Shown: positions 7,161-38,291 of the stretch, one piece after another | Numbering within the stretch: the first letter of the stretch is position 1 | Layout: each line of letters begins with the position of its first letter | IMG/VR virus record: IMGVR_UViG_3300034119_000495 | Location: 1-38,426 of that record | Direction: 5' to 3' (one strand) | DNA: 38,426 nt | Source of the DNA: a virus | Translations under genes and position numbers: made by a program | Notes under the pieces: generated by a model | Told to the model about the DNA's origin: nothing | Seen by the model: only the letters and a program-made list of their open reading frames with translations | The model's database searches: none

Positions 7161-7205
7161 ATGCAATTTAGTGGAATGGTTTTAAGTGGTGGATTTACTT
7201 ATAGT
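7161..7205 (+). repeat. 45-bp direct repeat, copy 2 (5' end of second KAIFGYG gene)
   Basis: Identical base for base to 6189-6233. The two copies diverge directly after it at the Pro-rich linker. Confidence 0.9.
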
Positions 7206-13774: not shown

Positions 13775-13789
13775 AAGAAAGAATATAAA

Positions 13790-14752: not shown

Positions 14753-14755
14753 AAA

Positions 14756-17280: not shown

Positions 17281-17678
17281 AGCATTATTACGTTGATGGT
17301 GAGAATTTAGTAGAGTTCTTTGTTGATAAGAACATGGGACCTAATGGTAAGACACATCCAAGAATTGACGGATTAGACGTTAAGTTTTGGTTTGTAGATA
17401 GTAATGGTATTGACTATTGCATGAGTGTTGTACCAGATGAGACTGTTATTACTCCAGTAAATGGCTTGGGTGAGGGTACATATTCTCAGTGGGCCAATGA
17501 AATACAGGGCCAATATGAAGCACAGAGAGCTAGTGTAGCTAGCAATAGTGATATGTTGACACGATTGAGCAAGACCGAAGCTGAAGTATTAGCTATGGCT
17601 TTTGACAATAGTAGTGTTGAGTCAATGTTAGCTAGTTTTGCACAATTAGCACCTGCTTCGGAAACTTTAGGTGGTTAA
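17265..17678 (+). CDS. Hypothetical phage protein
   Basis: 137 aa, function not recognised. The N-terminal half is beta-rich (KHYYVDGENLVEFFVDK, DVKFWFVDSNGIDYCMSVV) and the C-terminal half is helical (RLSKTEAEVLAMAFDNSSVESMLASFAQL). The start ATG 17265 lies 16 nt inside the hydroxylase gene, so translation is probably coupled. No signal peptide or membrane segment. It precedes two late-type promoters and the third adhesin cluster. It could be a chaperone or base-plate accessory protein for the adhesins by position only. Confidence 0.5.
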   Translation: MAKYIKHYYVDGENLVEFFVDKNMGPNGKTHPRIDGLDVKFWFVDSNGIDYCMSVVPDETVITPVNGLGEGTYSQWANEIQGQYEAQRASVASNSDMLTRLSKTEAEVLAMAFDNSSVESMLASFAQLAPASETLGG

Positions 17679-17704
17679 GATAGTTGTGTCCTAAGCCATA
17701 TAGT

Positions 17705-17725
17705 TATAAATAGTGTGATAAATAC
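17705..17725 (+). promoter_or_regulatory. Tandem T4-like late promoters (TATAAATAG and GATAAATAC)
   Basis: TATAAATA at 17705-17712 is a perfect T4 late consensus, and GATAAATAC follows at 17717-17725, twelve bases on. Both face the adhesin gene at 17746, whose RBS is AAAGG at 17734-17738. Confidence 0.65.
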
Positions 17726-17745
17726 GCTATGATAAAGGTAAATAT

Positions 17746-18681: not shown

Positions 18682-18696
18682 TAGAAAGAATAATAT

Positions 18697-19650: not shown

Positions 19651-19668
19651 AAGAATAAAGGTTAAAAA

Positions 19669-20550: not shown

Positions 20551-20563
20551 TAAAGGTTAAAGA

Positions 20564-21520
20564 ATGTCAATAACAATAACAGGTGGATTTACAGCAGCCG
20601 GCGGTGGCTTCACTCTAGTTCCACCACCATCAACACCCGATGCAGGATGGTTTGGCGGCGGATCTACAGGGAGTATCGCATCATTAGTAAGTCGCATAAC
20701 ATATGCAACAGATACTGATACTTCAACTAATAGAGGGCCATTAAGTTTAGCTAGAAAAAGTTTAGGTGCAACTGGTGATCTTACTTACGGATGGTTTGCA
20801 GGCGGAGAAGTTACTGGCCCAACAGTACAATCATTAGTAGATCGCATAACATACGCAACTGATACTGCTACAGCAAGTGTACGTGGTCCACTAAGTGCGG
20901 CAAAAAAATATTTAGCTGGTACTGGAAATACAACTAATGCTTGGTTTGGTGGTGGGCGTACACCTGCAGGTGTTTATTTTTCAACAGTAGATCGCATAAC
21001 ATACACAACTGATACTGCTACAGCAAGTGTACGTGGTCCATTAAGTTTAGCCAGAAGTGCCTTGGCCGCAACAGGTAATGCAACTGATGGATGGTGGGCA
21101 GGCGGTTATGCATCTAGCCCTGCCCCCGGAACATTCCGTTCTACCATAGACAGGGTAACCTTTGCAACTGATACTGCAACTGCAAGTGTTCGTGGTCCAT
21201 TAACTAATTCAAATTTTCGTCTAGCCGCAACAGGTACACCCACAGATGGATGGTTTGGCGGTGGTTATAGTGGTTCTACAGTACAACGAGTTATATTTGC
21301 AACTGATACCGCAACAGCAAGTGTTCGTGGTCCATTAAGTTCAGGTAGAACATATTTGGCTGCATCAACTGATAGTACAACATATGGTTGGTTTGGCAGC
21401 GGCTCATTTACTTCTAGGGTAGACCGCATAACATATGCAACTGATACAGCAACTGCAAGTATTCGCGGCCCGTTAAGTTCAGCAAGAAGTTATTTGGCCG
21501 CAAGTTCAGGTATCCAATAA
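20564..21520 (+). CDS. Six-repeat GWFGGG adhesin-like protein 5
   Basis: 318 aa, tag MSITITGGFTAAGGGFTL, nearly the same DNA start as the glycine-rich gene before it. Six repeats follow, with one DSTTYGWFGSG variant, ending SSGIQ. It is the last of four adjacent adhesin genes in this cluster, and its stop lies in a CCAATA/TATTGG inverted repeat at the boundary with the replication region. Same inferred propeller and receptor-binding role. Confidence 0.6.
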   Translation: MSITITGGFTAAGGGFTLVPPPSTPDAGWFGGGSTGSIASLVSRITYATDTDTSTNRGPLSLARKSLGATGDLTYGWFAGGEVTGPTVQSLVDRITYATDTATASVRGPLSAAKKYLAGTGNTTNAWFGGGRTPAGVYFSTVDRITYTTDTATASVRGPLSLARSALAATGNATDGWWAGGYASSPAPGTFRSTIDRVTFATDTATASVRGPLTNSNFRLAATGTPTDGWFGGGYSGSTVQRVIFATDTATASVRGPLSSGRTYLAASTDSTTYGWFGSGSFTSRVDRITYATDTATASIRGPLSSARSYLAASSGIQ

Positions 21521-21557: not shown

Positions 21558-22154
21558 ATGATTAAGTTAACAGTACCATTACCCAAACAAGTTACAGTAG
21601 CATTCAGTGGCGGTGTTGACTCTTGTGCTGTTGTTGACTTTTTAAGTCGTAAACATGACGTATCTTGTGCATACTTCCATCATGGTACTGAACACAGTAA
21701 TAAAGCATTAGATTTTGTATCTAAATTTTGTGAAGATAGAAATCTTCCATTATTTTTAGGTGTGCTAAATCGTGACAAACCCAAATCAATGAGCCAAGAA
21801 GAATTCTGGAGAGAAGAACGCTATCAATATTTTGCTAAACATGGACCAATCATTACCTGTCATCATTTGGATGATTGTGTTGAAACATATATTTGGTCAA
21901 GTTTACACGGCACACCCAAAGTTATTCCACTAACAAGAAACAATGTACTACGCCCATTCTTAACCACACGAAAAGAAGATTTTATATATTGGTGTGAAAG
22001 TCATAATATTGAATGGTGTGAGGATAAATCTAATAAGAATAACAGATATACCCGTAATTACATCCGTAATGAATTAATGCCTCACGTATTGAAAGTCAAT
22101 CCGGGTATTTATACTTTGGTCAAGAAGATTGTAGAAGGTAAGAAAAACACTTGA
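21558..22154 (+). CDS. tilS: TilS-like tRNA(Ile)-lysidine synthase, catalytic domain only
   Basis: 198 aa. PP-loop SGGVDS at 17-22, CHHLDDCVET at 101-110, LRPFL at 131-135, then EDKSN and RYTRNYIRNELMP (163-175), all in TilS order. TilS charges C34 of tRNA-Ile(CAU) with lysine using ATP so that it reads AUA. Bacterial TilS is usually 300-450 aa; this one stops after the N-terminal catalytic domain, lacking the tRNA-binding C-terminal domains. It lacks the four-Cys zinc site of QueC, so it is not a QueC. The ATG sits on the predicted transcript start with no SD. No tRNA-Ile gene is seen in the window. Confidence 0.75.
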   Translation: MIKLTVPLPKQVTVAFSGGVDSCAVVDFLSRKHDVSCAYFHHGTEHSNKALDFVSKFCEDRNLPLFLGVLNRDKPKSMSQEEFWREERYQYFAKHGPIITCHHLDDCVETYIWSSLHGTPKVIPLTRNNVLRPFLTTRKEDFIYWCESHNIEWCEDKSNKNNRYTRNYIRNELMPHVLKVNPGIYTLVKKIVEGKKNT

Positions 22155-22202: not shown

Positions 22203-22469
22203 ATGTCAGATTATAACAGAACCTTTAACGGTGAAGCAAAGATTAAACTAACACAATTAATTAATGAAGGGATGCACGTCCTACATGAAATTGATACATT
22301 GAATGGTGGATTAAACGACACTATTAAAGCTGTAGCAGAAGAACTTGAAATCAAAGCTAGTACATTAAAGAAAGCAATTAAAATTGCACACAAAGCAAGT
22401 TTAGGTCAGACTAACAAAGACCACGATGAACTCAACACTATCCTAGAAACTGTAGGGAAAACACTTTGA
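22203..22469 (+). CDS. DsbA-like small dsDNA-binding / late-transcription accessory protein
   Basis: 88 aa, all helical and charged: FNGEAKIKLTQLINEG, LNGGLNDTIKAVAEELEI, ASTLKKAIKIAHKA. It resembles, from memory, the small DsbA-like proteins found next to DNA polymerase in T4-like aquatic phages; T4 DsbA is 89 aa and binds DNA near late promoters. It has its own sigma70-like promoter and a strong SD. Its stop overlaps the polymerase start as TTGA. The assignment is moderate; a generic helical DNA-binding protein is the alternative. Confidence 0.5.
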   Translation: MSDYNRTFNGEAKIKLTQLINEGMHVLHEIDTLNGGLNDTIKAVAEELEIKASTLKKAIKIAHKASLGQTNKDHDELNTILETVGKTL

Positions 22470-25183
22470 GTTATGTGGATGCTATTCACAGTAGGGATGA
22501 AGACCGTATCTACGTTGTAGAAAGAGACAAGGACGGCAAGCGTCAATACAAAGAATACCCTACTAATTACGTATTGTATTATCCTGATCCTAGGGGTAAA
22601 CAACGTAGTATATACGGCGATCCAGTCAGTCGTTTCAGTACTCGCAAACGACAAGAGTTTGAAAAAGAAAAACGTATCCATTCAAATAAAAAATTATTTG
22701 AAAGTGATATACCAGTTGTCTTTCGCTGTTTAAGTGAAAACTATCTTGGTATTGATGCACCTAAACTTCATACTTGTTTCTTTGACATTGAAGTAGACTT
22801 TGATCCTGTAAAAGGATTCAGCCCTACTAATGATCCATTCAATCCTGTTACAGCTATTAGTTGTTACTTAGATTGGCTAGATCAATGTATTACATTAGTG
22901 ATTGCTCCGAAACATATGAGCAGTGAAACAGCCCAAGAAATCACTAATGAGTTTGAGAATACAATGCTATTCACAAATGAGAAAGAAATGTTTGATGTTT
23001 TCTTTCAACTCATTGAAGATGCTGATGTACTAACTGGCTGGAACTCAGAAGGCTATGATATACCCTATATGGTCAATCGTGTTACTAGAGTAATGAGTAA
23101 GGATGACACACGCAAGTTCTGCTTGATGGGTCAACTTCCTAAAGCTAGAGAATACGAACGATTCGGTAAAAGTGAAACAACTTATGACTTAGTAGGTCGT
23201 ATTCACTTGGACTATTTACAGTTGTACAAAAAATATAACTATGAATCACGCCACAGTTATAAACTTGATTCTATCGGTGAGATGGAAGTGGGTGAAAACA
23301 AAACACAATATGAAGGTACTCTTGACCAACTGTATAACAAAGACTTTAAAAAATTCATTGAATACAACAGACAAGATACTATGTTGTTAGTGAAGATTCA
23401 CAACAAACTTAAGTTTTTAGAATTAGCTAATCAACTTGCACACGAGAATACTGTACTGCTTCCAACAGTTATGGGTTCAGTAGCAATGATTGAGATGGCA
23501 ATTTTTAATGAAGCACACGAACGTGGCTTAGTAGTACCAGATAAAAAACGAAAGGTTGAAAATGAAGAAGATGTCCAGCAGGCAGCAGGTGCCTTTGTTG
23601 CTACGCCGAAAAGAGGAATGCACGAGTGGGTCGGTGCAGTTGATATCAACTCACTCTATCCCTCGGTTATTCGTGCCCTCAACATGGCAGGAGAAACCAT
23701 CGTTGCTCAGGTCAGACAAACAATCACAGACCAATATATGCACGACAAAGGTGTACGATTAGCAAGTGAAAAGAAACGTCACAAAGAAGGTGATGATGCA
23801 GTTACAGGGTCTATTCTCTGGGAAAATCTATTTGGTGCATTAGAGTACACAGCGATTATGAACCAAGAACGTGGAACTATTCTTACTGTTGACTACGAAG
23901 ATGGTCGTAGTGTAGAAATGTCGGCAGCTGAAATATGGAAGATGATCTTTGATAGTCATAAGCCCTGGATGTTAAGTGCTAATGGTACAATCTTTACTTA
24001 TGAAAAAGAAGGTGTTGTACCCGGTCTACTAAGTCGTTGGTACTCAGATCGTAAAGAGATGCAGAAAAAACTTAAAGAAGCAACTACTACGGAGGATAGA
24101 GAGTACTGGGACAAACGACAACTTGTTCGTAAGATTTTACTCAACTCAGCATACGGTGCACTATTGAATGAACATTGTCGTTTCTATGATAAACGTATTG
24201 GTCAATCAGTTACATTATCTGGTCGTCAGATCGTTAAGCATATGATGAGTACTATCAATGAAACTGTAGAAGGTATCTATTCACACGAAGGTAATGCTAT
24301 TGTGTATGGTGATACTGACAGTTGTTACTTCACAGCTTATCCAACATTAAAGCCTCAGATTGATTCTGGTGCATTAGAGTGGAATAAAGAAACTTGTATT
24401 GGATTGTATGATGGTATAGCTGACCAAGCAAATGAATCGTTCCCTGCATTTATGGAGAAAGCTTTTCATGCACCACGTAAGAATGGTGCTATCATTAAAG
24501 CTGGACGTGAATTGATTGGTGATCGTGCTATCTTTATTGTTAAGAAGCGTTATGCTATTAATATCTTTGACAAAGAAGGTAAACGTAAAGACAAAGACGG
24601 TGCATTGGGTGATATCAAAGCTATGGGTCTTGATTTGAAACGTGCTGATACTCCTAAGTATGTACAAGAATTCTTAATGAATGTACTACAGATGGTTCTA
24701 CAACAAGGTAAAGGCCGTACAGAAGTTATTGAAGCTGTAAAAGATTTTAAACGCATATTAACAGCACAGGATAGTTGGACTAAAGGTTCACCTAAAGGTG
24801 TAAACAAACTTACGATGTATGGTGACTTAGAAGCAAAAAGTAGTACAGGTCGTGCTAATATGCCCGGTCACGTTAGAGCGGCATTGAATTATAATTACCT
24901 ACGTAGAGTAAACGGAGACAATTATAGTCAAAAGATTATTGACGGTATGAAGGTTGTAGTCTGTAAACTAAAACCTAATCCATTAGGGTTTACTAGTGTA
25001 GCATATCCAGTAGATGAATTACGTTTGCCCAAATGGTTTACTGAGTTACCATTTGATGATTCAGCAATGGAACAAACGTTAGTAGATGAAAAGATTGATA
25101 ACTTATTGGGTGTATTAGATTGGGATATTCGTAGTAATACAGATACCAACAGTACATTCAATGATTTATTCAGTTTCGGTTAA
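22466..25183 (+). CDS. 43: T4 gp43-type family B DNA polymerase
   Basis: 905 aa (T4 gp43 is 898). 3'-5' exonuclease: FFDIEV with D107/E109, TGWNSEGYDIPY with D198, EYNRQDT. Polymerase: motif A DINSLYPS near 392, motif B ILLNSAYG near 555, motif C YGDTDS near 614, then VKKRYAI. The C-terminus TFNDLFSFG fits a clamp-binding peptide. The start is taken as TTG 22466, which overlaps the upstream stop and has AGGGA 7 nt before it; GTG 22475 is the alternative, and no ATG occurs before the ExoI motif. It is the replicative polymerase, followed by its clamp gene. Confidence 0.97.
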   Translation: MSYVDAIHSRDEDRIYVVERDKDGKRQYKEYPTNYVLYYPDPRGKQRSIYGDPVSRFSTRKRQEFEKEKRIHSNKKLFESDIPVVFRCLSENYLGIDAPKLHTCFFDIEVDFDPVKGFSPTNDPFNPVTAISCYLDWLDQCITLVIAPKHMSSETAQEITNEFENTMLFTNEKEMFDVFFQLIEDADVLTGWNSEGYDIPYMVNRVTRVMSKDDTRKFCLMGQLPKAREYERFGKSETTYDLVGRIHLDYLQLYKKYNYESRHSYKLDSIGEMEVGENKTQYEGTLDQLYNKDFKKFIEYNRQDTMLLVKIHNKLKFLELANQLAHENTVLLPTVMGSVAMIEMAIFNEAHERGLVVPDKKRKVENEEDVQQAAGAFVATPKRGMHEWVGAVDINSLYPSVIRALNMAGETIVAQVRQTITDQYMHDKGVRLASEKKRHKEGDDAVTGSILWENLFGALEYTAIMNQERGTILTVDYEDGRSVEMSAAEIWKMIFDSHKPWMLSANGTIFTYEKEGVVPGLLSRWYSDRKEMQKKLKEATTTEDREYWDKRQLVRKILLNSAYGALLNEHCRFYDKRIGQSVTLSGRQIVKHMMSTINETVEGIYSHEGNAIVYGDTDSCYFTAYPTLKPQIDSGALEWNKETCIGLYDGIADQANESFPAFMEKAFHAPRKNGAIIKAGRELIGDRAIFIVKKRYAINIFDKEGKRKDKDGALGDIKAMGLDLKRADTPKYVQEFLMNVLQMVLQQGKGRTEVIEAVKDFKRILTAQDSWTKGSPKGVNKLTMYGDLEAKSSTGRANMPGHVRAALNYNYLRRVNGDNYSQKIIDGMKVVVCKLKPNPLGFTSVAYPVDELRLPKWFTELPFDDSAMEQTLVDEKIDNLLGVLDWDIRSNTDTNSTFNDLFSFG

Positions 25184-25260: not shown

Positions 25261-25992
25261 ATGAAAGATAATTTACAAGATTTAATTCAACACACACATG
25301 GCTTAGGCTGTATTGATTTGATTAAAGTTAGTGGAACTGACACAGAGACAACTGTAAACGCAGTAGCAGAAGATAAATCTGTTATCGTTAGTGGTGTTCT
25401 TAAACATCCTAGCGTAGAGTTTATCGGAACGTTTGGTATGCCTAACTTAGGTAAACTTAAAACAATTCTAAGCTTTGATGACTATGATGAACATGCTAAA
25501 ATCAATGTTACACGTGTTAACAAAGACGGTGCAAGTGTACCAGAATACATTCACTTTGAAACAAAAGCAGGTGATTTCGTTAACGACTATCGTTTGATGA
25601 GTAAAGCTATTGCTGATGAAAAAGTTAAGAATGTAATGTTCAAAGGCACTACATGGAATGTAGAGTTTGAACCAAGTATTGCTGGCATTCAACGATTGAA
25701 ACGTCAAGCAAGTGCCAATAGTGAAGAAAAGAACTTTACTACTAAAACAGAAAATGGTAACTTAATGGTTTACTTTGGTGATCCGTCAACTCACTCAGGT
25801 AACTTTGTGTTTCATCCGGGTGTCACTGGTTCATTGAACAAAGCATGGATGTGGCCTGTTAAAGAATTCTTAAGCATTATGGATCTACCCGGTGATAAGA
25901 TTATTCGCATTAGTGATGCTGGCGCTACAGAGATTGTTGTTGACAGTGGTTTAGCAGTTTATCGTTACTTACTCCCAGCACAAGCAAAATAA
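25261..25992 (+). CDS. 45: T4 gp45-type sliding clamp
   Basis: 243 aa, similar to T4 gp45 (228 aa). Motifs such as GTFGMPNLGKLKTILSF, VEFEPSIAGIQRLKRQAS and the closing VDSGLAVYRYLLPAQ match clamps of T4-like phages. The clamp forms a trimeric ring that tethers polymerase to DNA and also activates late transcription in T4. It has its own sigma70-like promoter after the polymerase gene. It ends in TAATG coupling to the DpdA-like gene, so clamp and DNA-modifying enzyme are made together. Confidence 0.9.
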   Translation: MKDNLQDLIQHTHGLGCIDLIKVSGTDTETTVNAVAEDKSVIVSGVLKHPSVEFIGTFGMPNLGKLKTILSFDDYDEHAKINVTRVNKDGASVPEYIHFETKAGDFVNDYRLMSKAIADEKVKNVMFKGTTWNVEFEPSIAGIQRLKRQASANSEEKNFTTKTENGNLMVYFGDPSTHSGNFVFHPGVTGSLNKAWMWPVKEFLSIMDLPGDKIIRISDAGATEIVVDSGLAVYRYLLPAQAK

Positions 25993-27542
25993 TGGAACAA
26001 GATAATCTATCAGCAAAACAAAACCCTGATTGGGCATTGTTCTTACCTGCAGTTAGTAGTTTTTATATCTCTGGCTTGGGTAAGCAACGTAAAGGTGAAC
26101 AATACTTTGACCCTGCACGTATCCCTGCTCAATTCAACGGTGATGTAGAGAAACTAAACTTTTTAAATAGTAGTGAAGGTCTATATTATTATAAATGGGG
26201 TTTGTACAGTGCAGGTCATGCTAACTTAGATACAACTGTAAACGATCCTAGCGAAAGTATCATTAGAGAACGTGAAGCTGGTACATTTATGTTGGGTGAC
26301 TCTGGTGGATTTCAGATTTTAAAAGGTCAATGGCCGGCTGATTGGAAAGACCCTAATTGCCCTAAGGCTATGATTAAGCGTAAAGCTGTATTGAACTGGA
26401 TGGATACATACATGGACTATGGTATGGTACTTGATATTCCTTCACAATCAATAACTACCTTTAATATGAAGGATAAGAACGGTAATAGTCTTCATGGTAT
26501 TAGTACTATTCAGGAAGCAATTACTGCTACTCATATTAACAACGAATACTTCATTAACAATCGTTCGGGTAAATGTAAGTTCCTAAATGTATTGCAAGGT
26601 CGTACACATACACAGTCAGATGATTGGTATGCTGAAATGAAGAAGTATTGTGACCCAAATATCTATCCAGACACTCATTTTAATGGTTGGGCATTTGGTG
26701 GTCAAAACAAGATTGATGTACACTTGATGCTAACTAGAATGGTTGATATTATCCATGATGGTTTATTAGTAGAAGGTAAACATGATTTAATTCACTGTTT
26801 GGGTACAAGTATATTAGAGTATGCAGTATTGTTTACTGATATACAACGTGCTATTCGTAAGTATCATAACCCAAAATTACAGATTACGTTTGACTGTGCA
26901 AGCCCATTCTATAGTGCGGCTAAGGGTTTAGCATATTTCAATACTAATATTGAGCATAATAAGAAATGGTCATACAGTATGGAAAAGACTGCTGAAAAGA
27001 AAGAATATGCAAGTGATACTAGAAAATATCGTGATGCTGTATTAGCTGAAGGTATCCATAAACTATTTACAGATAGTCCAGTAACTGATAAACTACTGCT
27101 TAAGGATATGTGCTATCGTGGTCATGGTTTCTTGGGACAGCATAACAAAGAAACAAAAACAAGTTGGGATACATTGAGTTATACATTGATTCAAAGTCAT
27201 AATGTTTGGATGCATATGAATGCTGTACAAGAGGCTAATCGTCAATATGAGCAAGGTGTTGTTCCCAAGATGTTAATGAATGAACAGTTTGAACGTGTTT
27301 TGTTCAAAGATGTTATTGATGAAATCTTTAGTAAAAAAACTAAACAGGAAGCAATTGATTTGATTGATCAAAACAGTAGATTGTGGATGCAGTTTCAATC
27401 AGGTAGTCAGGGTATTAGTGGTAAACGAACTGTTAATGCATTAAGTAAGTTTGAAGAATTATTTGAAGTTCAAAATGAACCAGAGTTTGAAGAGGTAATA
27501 GAGGATAGCGATGATGCTATGAATGAAATACTAGGAGAGTAA
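25992..27542 (+). CDS. dpdA: DpdA/Tgt-like transglycosylase (7-deazaguanine insertion into DNA)
   Basis: 516 aa. Tgt-superfamily motifs in order: GDSGGFQ with D103, the base-binding and catalytic Asp of Tgt; LNVLQG (198-203); GWAFGG (232-237); FDCASP with D301 at the place of the Tgt nucleophile; and SHNVW with H403. The usual CxCxxC of the zinc site is reduced to MCYRGHG (C374). Tgt enzymes swap guanine for a 7-deazaguanine; the phage DpdA branch does this in DNA. DpdA is favoured over Tgt because of length, divergence and the phage folE-queD-queE genes. The gene is translationally coupled to the clamp. The archaeal-type tRNA enzyme is the alternative. Confidence 0.75.
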   Translation: MEQDNLSAKQNPDWALFLPAVSSFYISGLGKQRKGEQYFDPARIPAQFNGDVEKLNFLNSSEGLYYYKWGLYSAGHANLDTTVNDPSESIIREREAGTFMLGDSGGFQILKGQWPADWKDPNCPKAMIKRKAVLNWMDTYMDYGMVLDIPSQSITTFNMKDKNGNSLHGISTIQEAITATHINNEYFINNRSGKCKFLNVLQGRTHTQSDDWYAEMKKYCDPNIYPDTHFNGWAFGGQNKIDVHLMLTRMVDIIHDGLLVEGKHDLIHCLGTSILEYAVLFTDIQRAIRKYHNPKLQITFDCASPFYSAAKGLAYFNTNIEHNKKWSYSMEKTAEKKEYASDTRKYRDAVLAEGIHKLFTDSPVTDKLLLKDMCYRGHGFLGQHNKETKTSWDTLSYTLIQSHNVWMHMNAVQEANRQYEQGVVPKMLMNEQFERVLFKDVIDEIFSKKTKQEAIDLIDQNSRLWMQFQSGSQGISGKRTVNALSKFEELFEVQNEPEFEEVIEDSDDAMNEILGE

Positions 27543-27756: not shown

Positions 27757-27970
27757 TCCATCACTTACAATGAAATCAACAATATCTTCTGAAACTCAGG
27801 AGTCTGTTATCACCTTTACTGGCGGAACAAGTGAGATGTTACGTGTAGCAAAAGACGGGTTTTATATACGTGGAATTAGGGTAAATCAGGATGACAAAGA
27901 AGCTGAATTAGTGTATAATACATTTCATCAGTGGTTAACATGGGCAACATTAAATAGGGACTATAAATGA
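27743..27970 (+). CDS. Small conserved phage protein
   Basis: 75 aa. The core EMLRVAKDGFYIRGIRV followed by DDKEAELVYNTFHQWLTW is, from memory, seen in many aquatic T4-like phages, always of unknown function. Start 27743 is one of two adjacent ATGs, with AGGG about 10 nt upstream. It overlaps both neighbours (14 nt upstream, ATGA downstream). Confidence 0.55.
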   Translation: MMTVNPSLTMKSTISSETQESVITFTGGTSEMLRVAKDGFYIRGIRVNQDDKEAELVYNTFHQWLTWATLNRDYK

Positions 27971-28422
27971 TAGAACAACATGAACAAGCAATGGCAGAGA
28001 AACGTTCTCGTATTAAAAATAATGCATTACGTACAATCTTTGTACGTTTTCAAAAAGAAGGTATTCATAAATACCCAGCGGCAGCAACAGACCCAGCACT
28101 TGCAACAGGTGATGAGTATGATGTTAGCTTTTTAGCTACTCCACATAGACACATCTTTCATTTTGAAGTGTCTATTGAAGTATTTCACAACGACCGTGAT
28201 ATTGAGTTTATTCAGTTTAAAAGATGGTTAGAGAATCAATATTCTCAAGGCATTCTAGAATTGAATTACAAAAGTTGTGAAATGATTAGTGATGATCTTT
28301 ATGAGATTATCGCAACTCGGTATCCAGATCGTAATATCGCTATTCAAGTATCAGAAGATAATGAGAATGGTGCTACGATTGTCTATAACACAAATAAACC
28401 TTATCAACAACTCGCTATTTAA
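27967..28422 (+). CDS. Conserved phage protein of unknown function
   Basis: 151 aa. Beta-rich segments (DEYDVSFLATPHRH, IFHFEVSIEVFHNDRDIEFI) followed by a helix (QFKRWLENQYSQGILEL) and a YNTNKPYQQLAI end. No catalytic motif is visible. It starts by ATGA overlap with the preceding gene. It probably acts with the neighbouring small replication-region proteins; nothing more can be said. Confidence 0.5.
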   Translation: MIEQHEQAMAEKRSRIKNNALRTIFVRFQKEGIHKYPAAATDPALATGDEYDVSFLATPHRHIFHFEVSIEVFHNDRDIEFIQFKRWLENQYSQGILELNYKSCEMISDDLYEIIATRYPDRNIAIQVSEDNENGATIVYNTNKPYQQLAI

Positions 28423-28433: not shown

Positions 28434-28637
28434 ATGGCAAAACAACAACAATCTAACCCACGTGTTCAACAAATCTTTGAGGACCTAGAAAACTATCTAA
28501 TGTTCTGTCAGGATTATGGATACAAGTTTGATGAATCAACACTATATGATATGCGTAGCTTTGCATATCGCCAATTTACTAAAGCAGTAACTGGCAAGTG
28601 GGCTAAAGATCAGTGGCAGGAAGATGCACGTCCATGA
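28434..28637 (+). CDS. Small conserved phage protein (NPRVQQIFEDLENY family)
   Basis: 67 aa. RVQQIFEDLENYLMFCQDYGYKF followed by LYDMRSFAYRQF and GKWAKDQWQEDAR, a helix-rich protein that I recognise as a conserved small protein of T4-like aquatic phages without known role. AAAGGAATA precedes the ATG. It overlaps the downstream GT gene as ATGA. Confidence 0.55.
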   Translation: MAKQQQSNPRVQQIFEDLENYLMFCQDYGYKFDESTLYDMRSFAYRQFTKAVTGKWAKDQWQEDARP

Positions 28638-29812
28638 GAAAACTGTTTTACATGGGTCTTGAACCCTATAAAGCACGATACACTCTACAACTGCAAGAGT
28701 GGAATGAATCTGTGTTCAAACGTAGAGGCATTAACTATGTTATTGTACCGGGTGAAACTCTCAGTAATGACCAAGCTATTGTGACAGGACAAGTACTAGA
28801 TGCACATGGTCGTACATACTTCGGTATGAGTCAACTTATGAATCTAGTTAAAATGATGAAGCAAGGCGAGTGTAGTGATGAAGATATTATCTATTTTGAA
28901 GATATGTTTCAACCAGGCATTGAGAGTTTGCCTTACATTCTTAAGCAAGTTCCTGCTAATCTCCGTCCTCGTATATTTGTCCGTTGTCTTGCTCAGTCAA
29001 TTGATCCGGATGATTTCGTACATGTATGGGGAATGAGTGAATTCATGGGTCACTATGAAAAAATGGTTGATAGTTTTGTTGATGGCGTATTAGCTACCAA
29101 TGAAGAAATGATTATGCATATGAAAATTGCAGGATGGAAGGCACCATTATATAACATTAGTGGTCTTGCATTTGGTAAACATGAAGTTCGTAGTCGTATC
29201 AGTGGACCTCTCAAACCTTTCAATCAACGTAAAATGCGTGTAGCATTTAGCGCAAGATGGGATCAAGAAAAGCAACCAGACTTCTATATGGATTTGATTG
29301 AAGCATTCCACGCTAGATCAAATAATAACATTGAATTCTGTGTATTCAGTGGTAGTAAACTAAAAAGCAATAACGAAAGTTATATGGAACGCACTCGTAA
29401 ACTACAAAGCGAGGGTAAGCTTGTTATCTATGAAGACTTGGAAAAGAACGATTATTATGAACTACTAAACGATACTAGAGTATTGTTTAATTGTGCTTTG
29501 CAAGACTGGGTAAGCAATACAGTTAGTGAAGCAGATACATTGGGTTGTAACGTACTATATCCAGCATATCGTAGTTTTCCAGAAACTTTTGCTAATGATA
29601 ATACCCGATTATATATCCCCTGGAGTATTGATGATGCTATGTCTAAGTTACAGAACTTGTTGGTAGCACCACATAACTTTCAAGGTCGTATTAGTGATTA
29701 TAATGATGGAACTATTGACCGTATCTGTGATATCATGGAAGGCAACGGAGAACAATATTTACGCATGAGTAGTGACTATCGTAAATACACAAGAGAAACA
29801 AAATACTCATAA
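28634..29812 (+). CDS. GT-B fold glycosyltransferase-like protein
   Basis: 392 aa from ATG 28634 (ATGA overlap); the longer frame from 28613 is less likely. N-terminal Rossmann half: KLFYMGLEPYKARY, DIIYFEDMFQPGIESL, RIFVRCLAQ. C-terminal half: KMRVAFSARWDQEKQPD, EFCVFSGS, and LFNCALQDWVSNTVSEADTLGC, where a nucleotide-sugar site with an acidic E is expected in GT4-like enzymes. The domain order supports a nucleotide-sugar transferase. Its location among replication genes rather than among adhesins is unusual and would fit a DNA- or base-modifying sugar transferase, but nothing in the sequence proves it. Confidence 0.6.
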   Translation: MRKLFYMGLEPYKARYTLQLQEWNESVFKRRGINYVIVPGETLSNDQAIVTGQVLDAHGRTYFGMSQLMNLVKMMKQGECSDEDIIYFEDMFQPGIESLPYILKQVPANLRPRIFVRCLAQSIDPDDFVHVWGMSEFMGHYEKMVDSFVDGVLATNEEMIMHMKIAGWKAPLYNISGLAFGKHEVRSRISGPLKPFNQRKMRVAFSARWDQEKQPDFYMDLIEAFHARSNNNIEFCVFSGSKLKSNNESYMERTRKLQSEGKLVIYEDLEKNDYYELLNDTRVLFNCALQDWVSNTVSEADTLGCNVLYPAYRSFPETFANDNTRLYIPWSIDDAMSKLQNLLVAPHNFQGRISDYNDGTIDRICDIMEGNGEQYLRMSSDYRKYTRETKYS

Positions 29813-30262: not shown

Positions 30263-30286
30263 TTGTGTTACATAAAGGTAACACAA
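30263..30286 (+). promoter_or_regulatory. Nine-bp perfect hairpin in the folE leader
   Basis: TTGTGTTAC (30263-30271), loop ATAAAG, GTAACACAA (30278-30286). No T-run follows. It starts at the predicted late transcript start, so it could be a 5' mRNA stabiliser, an operator or an attenuator of read-through from upstream. Confidence 0.5.
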
Positions 30287-30321
30287 TATCAAAACAAAAC
30301 CATCACAAAGGAAGGTTATCT

Positions 30322-31002
30322 ATGAGTTATAATAAAACAAAAACAGATCCAGAGTTGGGCCAACAAGTACATGAACACTTAGTTAAAATGGGTGTTGAAA
30401 CACCTACATTGCCTAATAAGCTAGATAGAAAAGATAAAATTGATAGAATTGAAGAACACTTCACTGCTATTATGCAATATCTTGGTTTAGATTTAACAGA
30501 TGATAGTTTAATTGAAACACCCAAGCGTGTTGCTAAGATGTATGTAAATGAAATCTTTTGGGGGCTTGACTATGAAGCATTCCCTAAATGTACAACAGTT
30601 GACAACAAGATGCAATACAACGAAATGGTTGTAGAGCGTAATGTTAATGTTCAATCTAACTGCGAACATCATTTTGTAGTCATTGACGGATTGGCTACTG
30701 TAGCTTATGTCCCTAAACAAAAAGTATTAGGTCTTAGTAAGATCAACCGTATCGTAGAATATTTCAGTAAACGTCCGCAAATTCAGGAAAGATTAACTGA
30801 ACAAATATTTCACACCTTACAGTTCATCCTTGATACAGAAGATGTTGCAGTTATGATTGATGCACAGCATTATTGCGTTAAAAGTCGTGGTGTAGAAGAT
30901 ACAGGTAGTAGTACAGTTACTTGTCGTTTAGGTGGCGGATTCAAAACTGACCCAGCGGCACGAAGTGAGTTTTTACAAATTGCTAATAAAGGTTGCAAAT
31001 GA
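30322..31002 (+). CDS. folE: GTP cyclohydrolase I
   Basis: 226 aa (E. coli FolE 222). The start at 30322 is preferred: AAAGGAAGG lies 7 nt upstream, whereas the GTG at 30265 lies inside the leader hairpin. Zinc ligands C114, H117 (NCEHHF) and C185 (HYCVKSRG) are all present, as are [14 protein letters not shown] and STVTCRLGG. It makes 7,8-dihydroneopterin triphosphate from GTP, the entry to both folate and 7-deazaguanine synthesis. Given queD and queE nearby, DNA deazaguanine synthesis is the likely use. It overlaps the DfrB-like gene as ATGA. Confidence 0.95.
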
Positions 31003-32959: not shown

Positions 32960-33442
32960 ATGGCAAACAAAAAATTCTTTTCAACAAAAACATACAGACA
33001 AATAGGTCCTGTCGCATATCGTCAATGGCGTGCAGACAGTCATTGTAATTTAATTCATGGCTATGCCATGAGTTTTCACTTTGAGTTTGAAGCTGATACA
33101 CTAGACGCACGTAACTGGGTAACTGACTTCGGTGGACTACGACCACTCAAAGATAAACTAGAAGAATGGTTTGACCATACACTATTAGTCGCACAAGATG
33201 ACCCAATGCGTGAACATCTATTAGAACTAGGTCGTTTGAAACTAGCAAAGATTACAGAAGTAGAACGCACTGGATGTGAAGGTATTGCTGACTTCTTGTA
33301 TGAATATGTGAATACAATCTTTTTACCCAACTGTGGTAGTGAAGAAGCAAAGCGTGTTTGGTGCTGTAGAGTAGAGGTTCGTGAGACTGATAGTAATATG
33401 GCAGGCCGCGGTGGTCACAGAGAAGATAGAGAGTTTGAATAA
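32960..33442 (+). CDS. queD: QueD-like 6-carboxytetrahydropterin synthase
   Basis: 160 aa. The PTPS/QueD core: WRADSHCNLIHGYAMSF, where H28, C29 and H33 match E. coli H16, catalytic C27 and H31, but the third zinc ligand position (H33 in E. coli) is Tyr35. Then VTDFGGLRPLK, EEWFDHTLLV, CEGIADFLYEY with the conserved Glu, and VEVRET. QueD converts dihydroneopterin triphosphate to 6-carboxy-tetrahydropterin, the second step to preQ0. It follows a sigma70-like promoter under a palindrome, and ends in an overlap with the aldolase gene. The HGY form belongs to a subfamily I have seen before, so activity is likely but less certain. Confidence 0.85.
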   Translation: MANKKFFSTKTYRQIGPVAYRQWRADSHCNLIHGYAMSFHFEFEADTLDARNWVTDFGGLRPLKDKLEEWFDHTLLVAQDDPMREHLLELGRLKLAKITEVERTGCEGIADFLYEYVNTIFLPNCGSEEAKRVWCCRVEVRETDSNMAGRGGHREDREFE

Positions 33443-34062
33443 TGTTAGAAACTATTTGCGATACATTAGTTGAAGCATATAGACGCAATTGGATTACTAG
33501 TCGTGATGGCAATGTAAGTATTCGTCATCACGACCGTGATCACTTTTATATCACTCCTAGTGGCGTCCGTAAGCAGACACTACAGCCTGATCAATTTAAA
33601 AAGATCAGTATCCGTGGTCTATTATGGCAAGAAGAACACTATTCAGATATCAGTGCTAAACTAAAACCCAGTGGAGAGATTCCTCTGCACTTTGGATTAC
33701 AACGAGCAATGGGTCAGCATAGTAATGATGTACGTGTAGTAGTTCACTTACATCCTACTTATTGCATTGCTGCCATGCATGCCGGTATTGATTTAAGTAC
33801 CATTAGCGATGCGTTCCCAGAACTCAATCGTTACACTAAGGTAGCACCTAATGTAGGAGACGTGGCACCTATCAGTCAAGAACTAGCAGATCGTTGTCAC
33901 GAAAATCTCAAGTTAGATGATTATGGTAATATTGCTTATGACATTGTAGGAATTAAAGGTCACGGTGTAGTTGCTATTGACACTAGCCCATGGCGTGCAT
34001 TTGAACACATTGAACGATTAGAACACATTTGTCAAATCGTGTTAGCATCAGGAAAATATTAA
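33442..34062 (+). CDS. Class II aldolase/adducin-family protein
   Basis: 206 aa. DGNVSIR and ITPSGVRKQ (substrate phosphate loops), KPSGEIPLHF with catalytic E79, VHLHPTY with zinc ligands H102 and H104, and KGHGVVA with H174. This is the complete L-fuculose/L-ribulose phosphate aldolase-type site. Members also act as epimerases or dehydratases (for example MtnB). It starts at the last base of queD and ends directly before the next gene, so it is in the queD-queE operon. Its substrate is unknown; a sugar phosphate or a pterin side chain (as in FolB-like retro-aldol steps) are possibilities. Confidence 0.8.
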   Translation: MLETICDTLVEAYRRNWITSRDGNVSIRHHDRDHFYITPSGVRKQTLQPDQFKKISIRGLLWQEEHYSDISAKLKPSGEIPLHFGLQRAMGQHSNDVRVVVHLHPTYCIAAMHAGIDLSTISDAFPELNRYTKVAPNVGDVAPISQELADRCHENLKLDDYGNIAYDIVGIKGHGVVAIDTSPWRAFEHIERLEHICQIVLASGKY

Positions 34063-34698
34063 ATGAGTTATATTGTAGGATCGTTGCCACCAATCAAATG
34101 TTTTGTTAAACGAGAGTTTCTCTATAACTTTGAAAAAGGTCACGGCGAATTAGAACCTGCTATATGGGTCAGTCTTAAAGCACTGCGTGGACAAGTGTTT
34201 CGTATAGAATCATTATTGCCCAATTATGGGGCACTCTATGACAAGTTGCCTATTCATGCTTATGTATGGAAAGAAGATCATACTGGCAACTTACCTATAG
34301 ATATACTACAGCTTTGGGACTGTATGGGGTACCGTTTTACTATCATTGAAAAAATAGGCTTGCGTAATCTAGGTGTTAAGTTTTTAGGTAAAGATAAAGA
34401 ATGGCATTATGGTAACTATTTGTTTACAGTAGATTTTTGTGCTGACGGCATGGATGTAGATACCGGCTTTACTGAAGTTGCTGAAGAACACAAATCGTTT
34501 AATTTTATTAAGTTAGAAAATGGACAATTTGCTTGTCAGCCTAACAATCGTTGCTTGTGGTATGACCAAAGTTTAATTCCTAGTGAAACTAAATTTCCTG
34601 ATTTTCAAGCGGCTCAAAATCTATGGACAGTAGATGGTACACGCAAATGGACTGCAGGTGATGATTGGTTCTATAACATTGAGGAAAAAAATGAATAG
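34063..34698 (+). CDS. Conserved phage protein of the deazaguanine operon
   Basis: 211 aa, function unknown. Segments such as PPIKCFVKREFLYNFEKGHGEL, FRIESLLPNYGALYDKLPIHAYVW, LQLWDCMGY, HYGNYLFTVDF and EEHKSFNFIKLENGQF are strongly patterned and, from memory, conserved across aquatic T4-like phages. It is beta-rich with no signal peptide or nucleotide-binding motif. It sits between the aldolase and QueE genes with no gap, and overlaps the small membrane protein gene by 8 nt. Confidence 0.55.
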   Translation: MSYIVGSLPPIKCFVKREFLYNFEKGHGELEPAIWVSLKALRGQVFRIESLLPNYGALYDKLPIHAYVWKEDHTGNLPIDILQLWDCMGYRFTIIEKIGLRNLGVKFLGKDKEWHYGNYLFTVDFCADGMDVDTGFTEVAEEHKSFNFIKLENGQFACQPNNRCLWYDQSLIPSETKFPDFQAAQNLWTVDGTRKWTAGDDWFYNIEEKNE

Positions 34699-34882
34699 TT
34701 TAGAGAAAATTTGGGCTAGAGCAACCGGTCATTTAATGGGTAATACAGATGATGACAGACCTGATGTACCTATTCTTACATTGGGTGAAGCAAGAATTGC
34801 ATTGTTCCTAAAAACTTTCTGGGTGATCTTACATGTGATAACATGTTGTTTTATTATAGCAAACACAATACATAATTGGTAA
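34691..34882 (+). CDS. Small membrane-anchored phage protein
   Basis: 63 aa from ATG 34691, which overlaps the previous gene by 8 nt. A hydrophilic N-terminus (SLEKIWARATGHLMG, DDDRPDVPILTLGEAR) is followed by one membrane helix (IALFLKTFWVILHVITCCFIIA). Function unknown. It is probably an inner-membrane protein co-expressed with QueE. Confidence 0.6.
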   Translation: MNSLEKIWARATGHLMGNTDDDRPDVPILTLGEARIALFLKTFWVILHVITCCFIIANTIHNW

Positions 34883-34885: not shown

Positions 34886-35734
34886 ATGAGTAACATAAAA
34901 ATTTCAGAACTATTCTATAGTATTCAGGGTGAGGGCCGTTATATGGGAGTTCCCTCCGTGTTCTTACGAACATTCGGTTGTAACTTTAAATGTGCGGGCT
35001 TTGGCATGCCTAAAGGTCAAGTAAGTAAAGAAGTAGAAGATATTGCGTCAAGGGTTCATTATTATGATGATTATAAAAAATTGCCTTTAGTCAGTACAGG
35101 TTGTGACAGTTATGCTTCATGGGATCCTAGGTTCAAGCATCTTAGTCCTGTTCGCCCCACTGATGATATTGTTGATGACATCATGGCTATGCTCCCTCAC
35201 AATCGTTGGATGGATGAACATCTTGTAATTACAGGTGGAGAACCTTTACTTGGCTGGCAAAGAGCATATCCTGACTTACTTTCAAATGAAAAAATGAGAG
35301 CATTGAAAGAGATTACGTTTGAAACTAACGGAACACAAGAACTTAGTCAAGACCTATCAATCTATCTACAACAATGGAAGATTAACAGAGAAAAGAATGC
35401 ATTAACATTTAGTGTTAGTCCTAAATTAAGCATCAGTGGTGAGAAGTGGGAAGAGGCAATTTGTCCTAGTGTTATTCGTCAATATGAAACAGTTGGCTTT
35501 GTTTATTTGAAGTTTGTTATCGCTACTAAAGATGATGCATTAGAAGCTGATAAAGCTGTACAAGAATTTCGTAATGGTGGATTTAGAGGTCCTGTATACT
35601 TTATGCCATGCGGTGGTGTAGAATCTGTATACAGCATGAATGCTAAGAATGTTGCTATTGAAGCAATGAATCGTGGTTACCGTTATAGTGACAGACTTCA
35701 AGTCCCGTTGTTCAAAAACGAATGGGGAACTTAA
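34886..35734 (+). CDS. queE: QueE-like 7-carboxy-7-deazaguanine synthase (radical SAM)
   Basis: 282 aa. LFYSIQGEGRYMGVPSVFLR opens as in QueE, then GCNFKC (C32, C36). The third cluster Cys is displaced: an insertion of about 34 residues precedes TGCDSYASW with C73, whereas ordinary QueE has CxxxCxxC followed by DT. ITGGEPLL at 115-122 and FETNGTQ follow. QueE is a radical-SAM enzyme that contracts 6-carboxy-tetrahydropterin to 7-carboxy-7-deazaguanine. The insertion is probably a lineage feature, as in other QueE with spaced cysteines. It overlaps the next gene as TAATG. Confidence 0.9.
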   Translation: MSNIKISELFYSIQGEGRYMGVPSVFLRTFGCNFKCAGFGMPKGQVSKEVEDIASRVHYYDDYKKLPLVSTGCDSYASWDPRFKHLSPVRPTDDIVDDIMAMLPHNRWMDEHLVITGGEPLLGWQRAYPDLLSNEKMRALKEITFETNGTQELSQDLSIYLQQWKINREKNALTFSVSPKLSISGEKWEEAICPSVIRQYETVGFVYLKFVIATKDDALEADKAVQEFRNGGFRGPVYFMPCGGVESVYSMNAKNVAIEAMNRGYRYSDRLQVPLFKNEWGT

Positions 35735-35952
35735 TGCCACAAACACAGGCATACGATCATTTCTATGAAAGAATGATCGGCACCGAATACAAGTTTGCTT
35801 GGTTACCACATAGATGTGATATATCAGGTAAACGTATTTGGTTAGAATACGCTTATCGTATGACTAGAATCATTACTGGGCCCGGTGAATCTATTTTTGA
35901 GTATAGATGGCACGATAAGAATACCCATATTATGTGGAAACTAAAAAGGTAA
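35734..35952 (+). CDS. Small conserved phage protein
   Basis: 72 aa from ATG 35734 (TAATG with queE; the longer frame is unlikely). YKFAWLPHRCDISGKRIWLEYAYRMTRIITGPG, then FEYRWHDKNTHIMWKLK. One Cys-containing turn (HRCDISG) resembles a single zinc-knuckle half, but only one Cys is present. Function unknown. Confidence 0.5.
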   Translation: MPQTQAYDHFYERMIGTEYKFAWLPHRCDISGKRIWLEYAYRMTRIITGPGESIFEYRWHDKNTHIMWKLKR

Positions 35953-35956: not shown

Positions 35957-36130
35957 ATGTATGAATTAAGATATCTTGTCCGAAACGGTTGGGACGGACC
36001 AGAAAAAGTGTTACAATATAGAACACATATTGAAGTAACTGATTACAGTACAAAGACCGATGATGGGAAATACGTAGCAGTGAAAAAATGGACTGAATGG
36101 TGTGATGTACCTACTGTAAAAGATAAATGA
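35957..36130 (+). CDS. Small phage protein, 57 aa
   Basis: MYELRYLVRNGWDGPEKV, then a beta-hairpin-like stretch ending VAVKKWTEWCDVPTVKDK. ATG 35957 has AAAAAGG 9 nt upstream, and the stop overlaps the next ATG as ATGA, so it fills exactly the gap between two genes. Strand-turn-strand composition; no recognised family. The tight packing and SD make translation likely. Confidence 0.6.
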   Translation: MYELRYLVRNGWDGPEKVLQYRTHIEVTDYSTKTDDGKYVAVKKWTEWCDVPTVKDK

Positions 36131-37461
36131 GAACATACGATAAACGAATTGGCTTTTTAGTAAGCTATCAAACTCTTATCCCTCATGGTGGGATAGGGCA
36201 ATTTACAAAAAGCTTTTGCGAGTTGATGGATCAACATAATATTAAAGTTGATATCATTACAGATAAAGAACCTAATGATAATGAGTTTGTTAAATCTATT
36301 CCCGCAAATATTATTGCACCATTAGAATCATTAAAGTATACCGATCATAGCAATATCTTTATGTATGGTGATACATTTTGCTATGAACGAATGGCTAACT
36401 TCCGTACTGCAATTGTAGAGGCGTTAGAACATAATCTATATGATGCTCTAATATGCAATACATATGAAACTGTACAAGTAGCAAGTACAATGGGTCTTGA
36501 GGATGTAATTCAAATCATTGCTTATACTCATTTAGAAAGTCAAATCTTTAAAGATACCAAGAATCCTTTCTTATATTCTACTAATGAAATGATGCGTAGA
36601 CAGTTAGAAATGGATCAATTGTATGTAGGAACACAAAGTAAATTCAATCAACTTAATATCAGTGATACAGTGTGGCATCTTCCTATTCCTATAAGTGAAC
36701 CTGCATTATTAGAAGAACATCACAAACAACGTGAAGGTATATTGTTTGTTGGTAGATGGGAAGAAGGTAAGAATCCTGAATTATTCTTAGAACTAATTGA
36801 ACAAACAAAACTGCCTGCTAAGGTAATGACTAGCGCAAATGGTGCTAAGAAGTTTGAAGATAGATTAAAGAAGATTGGCGTACCATACGAAATTAAAGTA
36901 GGTATCATTGGTCAAGAGAAAGTTGACTTTATGACTAGTGCTAGAATTGCATTCAATCCTAGTATTGTTGAGAGTTATGGTATGGCATTCTATGAACAAC
37001 ATATACAAATGCCTACACTTGTATTAGAGAATCAGCGTTGGACTAATAACTTTAACAGCGATTATTTTTACACTTGTAACAAAAAGAACATGGCTGAAAA
37101 AGCAAAAGAGTTATATGACATTTTTGAAAAAGCTGAAAGATGGTATAATTTAGGGTCATTGCAACACGCACAAGAACAAGAAGCTACAGTTTTTAATAAA
37201 TGGAATACATGCTTTAACACATTTGAAGCAAAAAAATCCAACACAAATACTGCAAAAATATGTAATGAAACTACAATTAAACATATTGATTTTATCAGTA
37301 GTTTAAACCGTAGTATTATTTGTATTGATGATGTACGTAGTGTATTAACAAATAAACACAAGTTCCGTGTTATATATACTGACAATGATACATATTTAAC
37401 AAAAGATCCTAGCTACGAACCAATAGAAGAGGAAACAGGATTAAGCCTGTTTAGTTTTTAA
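36127..37461 (+). CDS. GT4-type glycosyltransferase with clamp-binding-like C-terminus
   Basis: 444 aa. GT-B enzyme: HGGIGQFTKSF donor/acceptor loop, a VQIIAYTHLES strand, then the GT4 half EGILFVGRWEEGKNPELFLE and FNPSIVESYGMAFYEQ with the E-x7-E-like pair. After the GT core, residues about 370-444 form an extra tail that ends EETGLSLFSF. DNA polymerase here ends NDLFSFG, and T4 clamp clients, including the T4 alpha-glucosyltransferase, carry such hydrophobic C-terminal motifs. So this enzyme may glycosylate DNA at the clamp; the alternative is an envelope or protein sugar transferase. ATGA at the start, TAATG at the end with the epimerase. Confidence 0.75.
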   Translation: MRTYDKRIGFLVSYQTLIPHGGIGQFTKSFCELMDQHNIKVDIITDKEPNDNEFVKSIPANIIAPLESLKYTDHSNIFMYGDTFCYERMANFRTAIVEALEHNLYDALICNTYETVQVASTMGLEDVIQIIAYTHLESQIFKDTKNPFLYSTNEMMRRQLEMDQLYVGTQSKFNQLNISDTVWHLPIPISEPALLEEHHKQREGILFVGRWEEGKNPELFLELIEQTKLPAKVMTSANGAKKFEDRLKKIGVPYEIKVGIIGQEKVDFMTSARIAFNPSIVESYGMAFYEQHIQMPTLVLENQRWTNNFNSDYFYTCNKKNMAEKAKELYDIFEKAERWYNLGSLQHAQEQEATVFNKWNTCFNTFEAKKSNTNTAKICNETTIKHIDFISSLNRSIICIDDVRSVLTNKHKFRVIYTDNDTYLTKDPSYEPIEEETGLSLFSF

Positions 37462-38291
37462 TGAAAAAGATTTTAATTACAGGTAGCTCAGGCTACATCG
37501 GCAGTCATCTATGCAAAATGCTTAAAAATGAATATGAAGTGCATGGCTTAGATATTGATGAACCACAAGCACCGTTGAATGAGTTTTATCGTTGTGATAT
37601 TAATAGACAATTTGCCATACCCGGCGATATTGAATATGATGCGGTTATACATTTGGCAGCATTAGTTCGTGTGGGTGAAAGTGAACAGATTCCTATCAAA
37701 TACTATATCACTAACTTGAATGGTACAATGAATGTAGTTAACAAGATAAAGACAAAGAATTTTATCTTTGCTAGTACAGGTGCTGCCCAAGATTGTGCTA
37801 GTGCGTATGGTATAAGTAAACGTGCCGCAGAAGATGTTGTTAGAGAATATTGCACACAACATAAACAACAAGATTATACTATTTTTAGATTCTATAATGT
37901 TGTGGGTAGTGATGGTTATGAACCCACTAACCCTGACGGACTAATGTACAATCTAATAAAAGCACGTGATACAGGTAAGTTTACTGTATTTGGTAATGAT
38001 TATGATATATCACCTGACGGTACTTGTGTACGTGACTATGTGCATGTGAATGAGATATGTGATGCACTAAAACAAGCTATTGAAAAGCCTAGCAATAGTG
38101 TAGAATCATTGGGTCACGGTGTAGGTTATACAGTCAAAGAGATTGTAAGTCTGTTCCAGAAAGTTAATGATGTTGACTTTGATGTAGTATACGGTCCAAG
38201 AAGAAAGGGTGATATTGCTAGTTCAGTCCTAGAAGATGTATCACCCTATATGCGTAATCTTTATACTATGGAAGAGTTGTTAAAAATTTAA
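37461..38291 (+). CDS. UDP-glucose 4-epimerase-like NAD-dependent epimerase/dehydratase
   Basis: 276 aa. Rossmann GSSGYIGSH (8-16) for NAD, FASTGAA with S105/T106, catalytic YGISK (Y116, K120), and SPDGTCVRDYVHV, a GalE hallmark. It is shorter than E. coli GalE (338 aa), so parts of the C-terminal substrate region are trimmed. It interconverts nucleotide sugars, probably UDP-Glc and UDP-Gal or a relative, and is coupled by TAATG to the GT4 gene, whose donor it may supply. Its stop overlaps the end of the convergent minus-strand gene. Confidence 0.85.
   Translation: MKKILITGSSGYIGSHLCKMLKNEYEVHGLDIDEPQAPLNEFYRCDINRQFAIPGDIEYDAVIHLAALVRVGESEQIPIKYYITNLNGTMNVVNKIKTKNFIFASTGAAQDCASAYGISKRAAEDVVREYCTQHKQQDYTIFRFYNVVGSDGYEPTNPDGLMYNLIKARDTGKFTVFGNDYDISPDGTCVRDYVHVNEICDALKQAIEKPSNSVESLGHGVGYTVKEIVSLFQKVNDVDFDVVYGPRRKGDIASSVLEDVSPYMRNLYTMEELLKI

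Follow-up and report, generated by a model that had tools for sequence, protein, structure and literature searches.

In bacteriophage T4, the C-terminal peptide of the DNA polymerase gp43 (892-SLDFLF-897) occupies a hydrophobic pocket of the sliding clamp gp45 (PMC12746103). C-termini of this kind are common to gp43, gp55 and gp33, and the linker of gp55 varies freely among T4-related phages (PMC2988020). The T4 alpha-glucosyltransferase (AGT) is reported to bind gp45 (PMC13216743, citing Sommer 2004), and in the same paper this binding has little influence on the alpha/beta ratio. Other phages carry queuosine-pathway genes together with a transglycosylase of the DpdA type, for example KVP40.0122, named DpdA2 (PMC8056088). 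Here we describe a viral locus that has features of both systems.

Organization of the locus

The DNA analysed (the window) spans an entire viral record, 38,426 bases long, which is probably a fragment of a genome. The genes for the polymerase, the candidate clamp, the transglycosylase, the phrog_17812 protein, both glycosyltransferases, folE, queD, queE and the epimerase in the following map are on the plus strand. The T4-like family B DNA polymerase (DNAP, gp43-like; 22466..25183, 905 aa; PF00136, 1.4e-42) has RB69-type gp43 structures as its best PDB matches (5.7e-63). It is followed by a candidate sliding clamp of 243 aa (25261..25992), a DpdA-like tRNA-guanine-transglycosylase-like protein (TGT; 25992..27542, 516 aa), a small conserved protein of phrog_17812 (27967..28422) that is found in phage BUCT-ZZ01 too, and a second GT4-like glycosyltransferase (GT2; 28613..29812), 64.5% identical in BUCT-ZZ01. 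Further downstream are folE for GTP cyclohydrolase I (30265..31002; NF006824, 1.4e-98, over the cut-off), a queD-like gene (32960..33442; TIGR03367, 1.2e-08, under the cut-off) and a gene for a queE-like radical SAM enzyme (34886..35734; phrog_2076, 1.6e-51; QueE models, 7e-13, under the cut-off). The queD and queE genes are separated by an aldolase gene (33442-34062), a ferredoxin-family gene (34063-34698) and a small ORF (34634-34882). The glycosyltransferase of interest (GT; 36127..37461, 444 aa) is adjoined by a GalE-like nucleotide-sugar epimerase (37461..38291; TIGR01179, 3.3e-47, under the cut-off; PF01370, 1.1e-35), whose ATG overlaps the GT stop codon (TAATG). This agrees with the initial annotation, which had placed the GT after queD-queE and with its own epimerase; one small ORF (35722-35952) intervenes between queE and the GT.

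A TilS-like PP-loop ATPase (21558-22154; PF01171, 4e-32) is encoded just upstream of the DNAP, and the que cluster of Xanthomonas phage X1 has a PAPS-reductase-type PP-loop protein. The regions 6189-8081 and 12800-21520 encode many repeat-rich paralogues (TDTTGVGTAR / TATASVRGPLS), probably virion or adhesion proteins. A sulfotransferase (PF13469; 11923-12768) has the C-terminus KLFSI.

The glycosyltransferase has a GT-B fold

PF00534 matched the GT with an E value of 1.4e-05 and 25.2 bits, narrowly missing the curated cut-off of 26.4 bits. The EX7E motif is formed by E282 and E290, and in an alignment of 31 homologues both glutamates and most of the loop GRWEEGKNP are invariant. The AlphaFold model (pLDDT 75, pTM 0.72) matched some 200 GT-B structures in the PDB at E <= 0.001, among them the GT4 enzymes MshA, BshA and tll1591. 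Fold and EX7E motif thus identify the protein, on the basis of its sequence and model, as a GT4/GT-B glycosyltransferase. PDB profile searches with the GT and the TGT gave no significant match, and PF11440, the T4 alpha-glucosyltransferase family, did not match the GT in the Pfam search. A cellular origin was sought in bacterial genomes, where the sole match was a GT fragment (L351:8001-8144) near the end of an 865-kb contig of Sphingobium sp. AS12.

The C-terminal tail is conserved in the GT family

The DNAP ends in NSTFNDLFSFG and the GT in EETGLSLFSF, with LFSF as the exact common string. The initial annotation had drawn attention to this common tail and to an extra C-terminal extension on the GT. 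The tail is real in both translations, and the extension follows the GT-B core and spans roughly residues 371-444. The DNAP tail TFNDLFSFG (25154..25180) is in a position equivalent to that of the T4 gp43 peptide SLDFLFG. The GT tail GLSLFSF (37438..37458) is a predicted clamp-interacting peptide; residues 436-444 are unstructured in the AlphaFold model (pLDDT <50), and L441 and F442 are invariant in the 31 homologues.

An LF-type tail is present in 80/80 of the nearest viral GT homologues (74-100% identity), in the variants LFSF, LFSW, LFQW, LFEGL, LFEEI, LFEFL and others, and the linker before it varies in length and sequence. When the last eight residues are compared, the close GT family has 38 distinct tails, and every one has [LFMI]F among its final five residues; the background is 41 of 1032 distinct tails (about 4%) from 63 other conserved ORF families at the same loci. 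A second, more distant GT set, which shares 39-45% identity with the BUCT-ZZ01 homologue, has kept the LF tail likewise; the BUCT-ZZ01 GT matched no viral contigs as a single query, but an alignment query did. Over all homologues the tail is at the extreme C-terminus in 165 of 166. The sole exception (L175), in which the GT ends early, is on a 31-kb fragment where neither QueE nor TGT nor any other que gene was found. Tail-less homologues within an unchanged que context, which the initial annotation had named as evidence against its reading, were sought and none was found among the 166 loci. A very distant homologue in phage X1 (26% identity) has no tail and lies outside the que cluster.

Tail class follows the polymerase of the same phage

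The match between GT and DNAP tails is by class, not letter by letter. In the group of the window, nearly all contigs examined have a DNAP that ends in STF(D/N)xLF(S/T)FG, and the GT ends in xxLFxx. In a second group, which has another TGT family (TGT-II; L205, L196, L176), the ends are ATLEGLF(A/G) for DNAP, (S/T)LESLFA for GT and (S/T)LE(D/E)LF(A/G) for TGT; in L205 they are ATLEGLFA, SSLESLFA and VSLEDLFA. The corresponding tails of Synechococcus phage BUCT-ZZ01, a cultured phage that has the module, are STLDDFFS, GSLEDFFND and ASLDSFFD. DNAP and TGT also agree in the cultured phages X1 (SLESLFG/SLEELFG), ACP17 (SLDDLFE/TLDELFE) and Moby (SLEDLFGW/SLDDLFG). All 26 distinct GT tails from loci with TGT-I are of the first kind and all 17 from loci with TGT-II are of the second. 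We judged this match by a tree and not by a Fisher value, which ignores shared ancestry. On a GT tree calculated with the tail omitted, the tail class changed at least three times across well-supported branches, although the changes rest partly on long branches (L250, L291, L214, BUCT) and on L018, whose tail VFDSLFI is borderline. Because of these changes, tail class appears to follow the genome and not GT descent alone.

Among the 2050 distinct tails of 147 ORF families at 160 loci, 47 fit a strict T4-like pattern. All 47 belong to two families, the DpdA2-type TGT (34/42) and the GT (13/51), with none in the other 145. Within the window alone the common string is only four residues long, as would be expected if two short hydrophobic C-termini were alike by chance. 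The family-wide tail statistics and the class matching contradict this explanation, and its probability is negligible. Chance similarity was rejected on the background frequency and on the confinement of the strict pattern to two families; as far as the sequences of these families go, it is refuted for practical purposes.

The only other family in which all distinct tails are LF-type is a DNA methylase (PF01555) of the relatives, with the ends SLFSFG, SLFTFG and SLFVFG. It is a candidate for a third clamp-tethered DNA modifier. The methylase gene lies downstream of the GT-epimerase region (L141:4024-5082, L185:8447-9514 and L207:3815-4879, with SLFVFG, SLFTFG and SLFSFG, respectively), and these tails resemble the LFSFG of DNAP. 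A protein of about 195 aa that looks by eye like a GIY-YIG/T5orf172-type nuclease (L003:17034-17654, L035:7199-7795, L007:15947-16528) often has an LF tail as well (HFSTLFSYYDNLL, VFNSLFSYT, SVYNLFGM); its L003 copy had no Pfam match.

The sliding clamp as the predicted partner

The initial annotation had referred to T4 clamp clients with short C-terminal hydrophobic motifs, and gp43, gp55 and gp33 are such clients (PMC2988020). Its second analogy, with T4 AGT, holds only in part: the binding of AGT to gp45 is real (PMC13216743), but AGT has no LF tail and was rejected as a tail analogue. Therefore, gp43 (end SLDFLFG), gp55 (end SLDFLYEAND) and gp33 are the closer analogues. The GT tails SLESLFA and SLEDFFND are close to the T4 polymerase peptide SLDFLF.

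BUCT-ZZ01 encodes a bona fide gp45 (PF09116). In the window, the conserved 243-aa protein at 25261-25992 belongs to phrog_12062, a family of unknown function and the sole one recognised, and sequence comparisons with gp45 gave no match. Its position and size make it a candidate for a divergent sliding clamp of this lineage. A gp45 family search of the long contigs also gave no match, but this result is uninformative because control genomes gave none either.

The tail might instead bind another replisome protein, such as the clamp loader, the single-strand binding protein or the primase-helicase. The clamp of the window is only a candidate, and the LFSF-type tail is unlike the SLDFLF type of T4, which would fit such a partner. 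On the other hand, SLDFLF of gp43 sits in the gp45 pocket (PMC12746103), and T4-like tails are present on DNAP, GT and TGT in BUCT-ZZ01, which has gp45, and in the SLExLF lineages. We regard another partner as quite improbable. The tether of the GT to the clamp that the initial annotation had proposed is strongly supported by comparison, since the tail has been kept while the linker before it varies and it follows the DNAP class; clamp binding itself is deduced from these patterns. On this comparative evidence, the GT is very likely to be a clamp client.

The transglycosylase carries its own motif

The window TGT has the DSGG(F/L)Q active-site motif (DSGGFQ at 103) and a later catalytic Asp (FDCASPF at 300), and it aligns with DpdA2-type proteins at both positions. 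PDB profile matches to queuine tRNA-ribosyltransferase were weak, the AlphaFold model is poor (pLDDT 52) and no curated TGT family of Pfam matched, so that DpdA-like is the only label we use. The motifs are consistent with a DpdA-type DNA-guanine transglycosylase. Near its end is the sequence KFEELFEV, overlooked in the initial annotation, of which FEELFEV (27450..27470) resembles the DNAP tail; an acidic extension follows it. In two relatives, L073 and L060, the protein ends with this motif (KFNELFEFV and KFNEFFKFE). Two TGT families, TGT-I and TGT-II, with about 15% identity to each other, both carry a polymerase-like tail. For TGT-II, the BUCT-type protein, KVP40.0122 is a homologue with 35.6% identity across 63% of the query, and the TGT copies of KVP40 and pf16 have no tail.

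The GT is linked to the que module

The conserved module around the GT consists of folE, queD, queE, DpdA, GT2 and the epimerase, and it occurs in two recurrent gene orders with equal gene content. Flanks of 9 kb or more on each side of the GT are available at 28 loci; of these, 26 have folE, queD, queE and GT2, 23 have the epimerase and 21 have a TGT. Of 14 GT contigs searched for QueE and TGT, 13 are of at least 80 kb, and in these QueE was found in 13/13 and TGT in 13/13 (TGT-I profile in 12, TGT-II in L182). One of these, of 524 kb, has the module twice and may be a chimera: L020 and L023 (IMGVR_UViG_3300027749_002876, 524,565 bases) carry two diverged copies of DNAP, TGT, QueE and GT, from a chimera or two joined genomes.

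GT2 stands beside DpdA and has no tail, so that tethering would not extend to all enzymes of the module. GT2-related proteins adjoin TGT in ACP17, X1 and Paride. A second GT4-like protein has a wider distribution than the tailed GT and is beside or near TGT in five or more phage lineages (28613-29812; L092:9617-10678; L088:9272-10300; L086:6812-7972). Proteins similar to the phrog_17812 protein also adjoin TGT in X1 and ACP17; the window copy (27967-28422) has the pattern HRH..F...V..D..EF..K and VSED(G/N)E, by eye a likeness to the QueD-type T-fold.

QueC was absent from the complete genomes of BUCT-ZZ01, ACP17 and Paride, and it was not found over the cut-off in 14 of 15 GT/TGT contigs; one contig had it over the cut-off only together with its neighbours. 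It is present in Moby. With so few QueC genes in these phages, their own pathway would end at 7-carboxy-7-deazaguanine, unless QueC comes from the host, which could supply it. A 7-carboxy base carries at C7 neither an obvious hydroxyl nor an obvious amine.

This lack of an obvious nucleophile would be explained if the GT, as a clamp client, transferred sugar to a base of DNA other than the deazaguanine, such as a hydroxymethyl pyrimidine, and its proximity to que genes reflected a general DNA-modification island. The phage DNA glycosyltransferases that we know of act on hydroxymethyl pyrimidines, and DNA methylases of the relatives have the tail in common with the GT. The company of QueE and TGT in all 13 long contigs searched, and of folE, queD and queE at 26 of the 28 loci with long flanks, argues against it, and we consider this alternative unlikely.

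The substrate might also be a soluble pterin or nucleoside from FolE and QueD, or cell-surface material, with the tail merely parking the GT at the replisome. UDP-Glc:tetrahydrobiopterin glucosyltransferase is among the PDB fold matches (ranks 18 and 28), which keeps a pterin substrate in consideration, and GT clusters of cyanophages are commonly interpreted as genes for surface sugars (PMC7824862). However, the pterin enzyme is one of the roughly 200 matches, a polymerase-class tail would be of little gain to an enzyme with a soluble substrate, and the GT is linked to a clamp-tailed DpdA-like enzyme. This makes a soluble or surface substrate improbable, and we rate DNA as the likely substrate of the GT.

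Discussion

The initial annotation had suggested that the GT puts sugar on DNA, possibly on deazaguanine. This is plausible, and it has become likelier because the DpdA-like enzyme is itself clamp-tailed and the module is conserved. In the reading that we favour, the GT would dock on the phage sliding clamp through its C-terminal LFSF-type peptide, as the replicative polymerase does, and would act on newly made phage DNA. FolE, QueD and QueE would make a 7-deazaguanine base, which the DpdA-like enzyme, with its own clamp-type tail, would swap in behind the fork. The GT would then glycosylate the 7-deazaguanine derivative with nucleotide sugar supplied by the linked epimerase, and a second sugar might come from GT2. 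Several points speak against this reading: no clamp of the window's lineage could be recognised by sequence, the window TGT has no Pfam match and a poor AlphaFold model, a base made without QueC offers no obvious nucleophile at C7, GT2 is untailed, and T4 AGT binds gp45 without a tail of this kind and with little effect on the alpha/beta ratio. We still hold it to be somewhat more probable than all other readings together. Deazaguanine as the acceptor is given the same moderate confidence, below that for DNA as the substrate and further below that for the clamp tether; these grades for the GT are judgements and were not computed.

A more far-reaching and tentative possibility, which we think rather less probable than its opposite, is an assembly line on the clamp. 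The DpdA-type TGT and the GT, joined in certain phages by a DNA methylase, would be held there by polymerase-like tails, and glycosylated 7-deazaguanine would be built in step with replication. A glycosyl ester on the 7-carboxy group is conceivable because QueC is mostly missing. To our knowledge, such a DNA base has not been described before. Neither a clamp-tailed DpdA nor glycosylated deazaguanine in DNA turned up in the open-access literature that we searched.

Our comparison of relatives suggests that the GT and a base-swapping enzyme ride the replication machinery and build a sugar-decorated DNA base. If this is true, freshwater and cyanobacterial phages have a new class of DNA base with sugar on deazaguanine, and post-replicative DNA-modifying enzymes keep pace with the fork through the docking site of the polymerase on the clamp. 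It would also favour phage DpdA2-type enzymes as DNA enzymes and not tRNA enzymes. With the tail as a sequence tag, more DNA-modifying enzymes can be sought in phage genomes at little cost.

The GT has its fold and the EX7E motif in common with MshA, BshA and tll1591, but identity to these GT4 enzymes is 10-17%, and the extension and tail are extra. T4 AGT is a phage GT-B enzyme that acts on DNA and binds gp45, which resembles the predicted role of the GT; however, the GT does not belong to the PF11440 family of AGT, AGT does not have the LF tail, and the AGT system concerns hydroxymethylcytosine whereas the window has a deazaguanine pathway. FolE, QueD, QueE and a TGT-like enzyme are common to the window and to phage DpdA systems (Hutinet 2019, PMC6884629; KVP40 DpdA2, PMC8056088). 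Compared with these systems, QueC is mostly missing here, the transglycosylase has a clamp-type tail, which that of KVP40 lacks, and two GTs and an epimerase are present. As in T4 gp43, gp55 and gp33, a hydrophobic and acidic motif stands at the extreme C-terminus of GT and TGT after a variable linker, and SLDFLFG of gp43 and SLDFLYEAND of gp55 are near SLESLFA of GT and SLEDLFG of TGT. The motif, here a predicted clamp ligand, differs from that of T4 in that it is carried by DNA-modifying enzymes, in the window as the variant LFSF.
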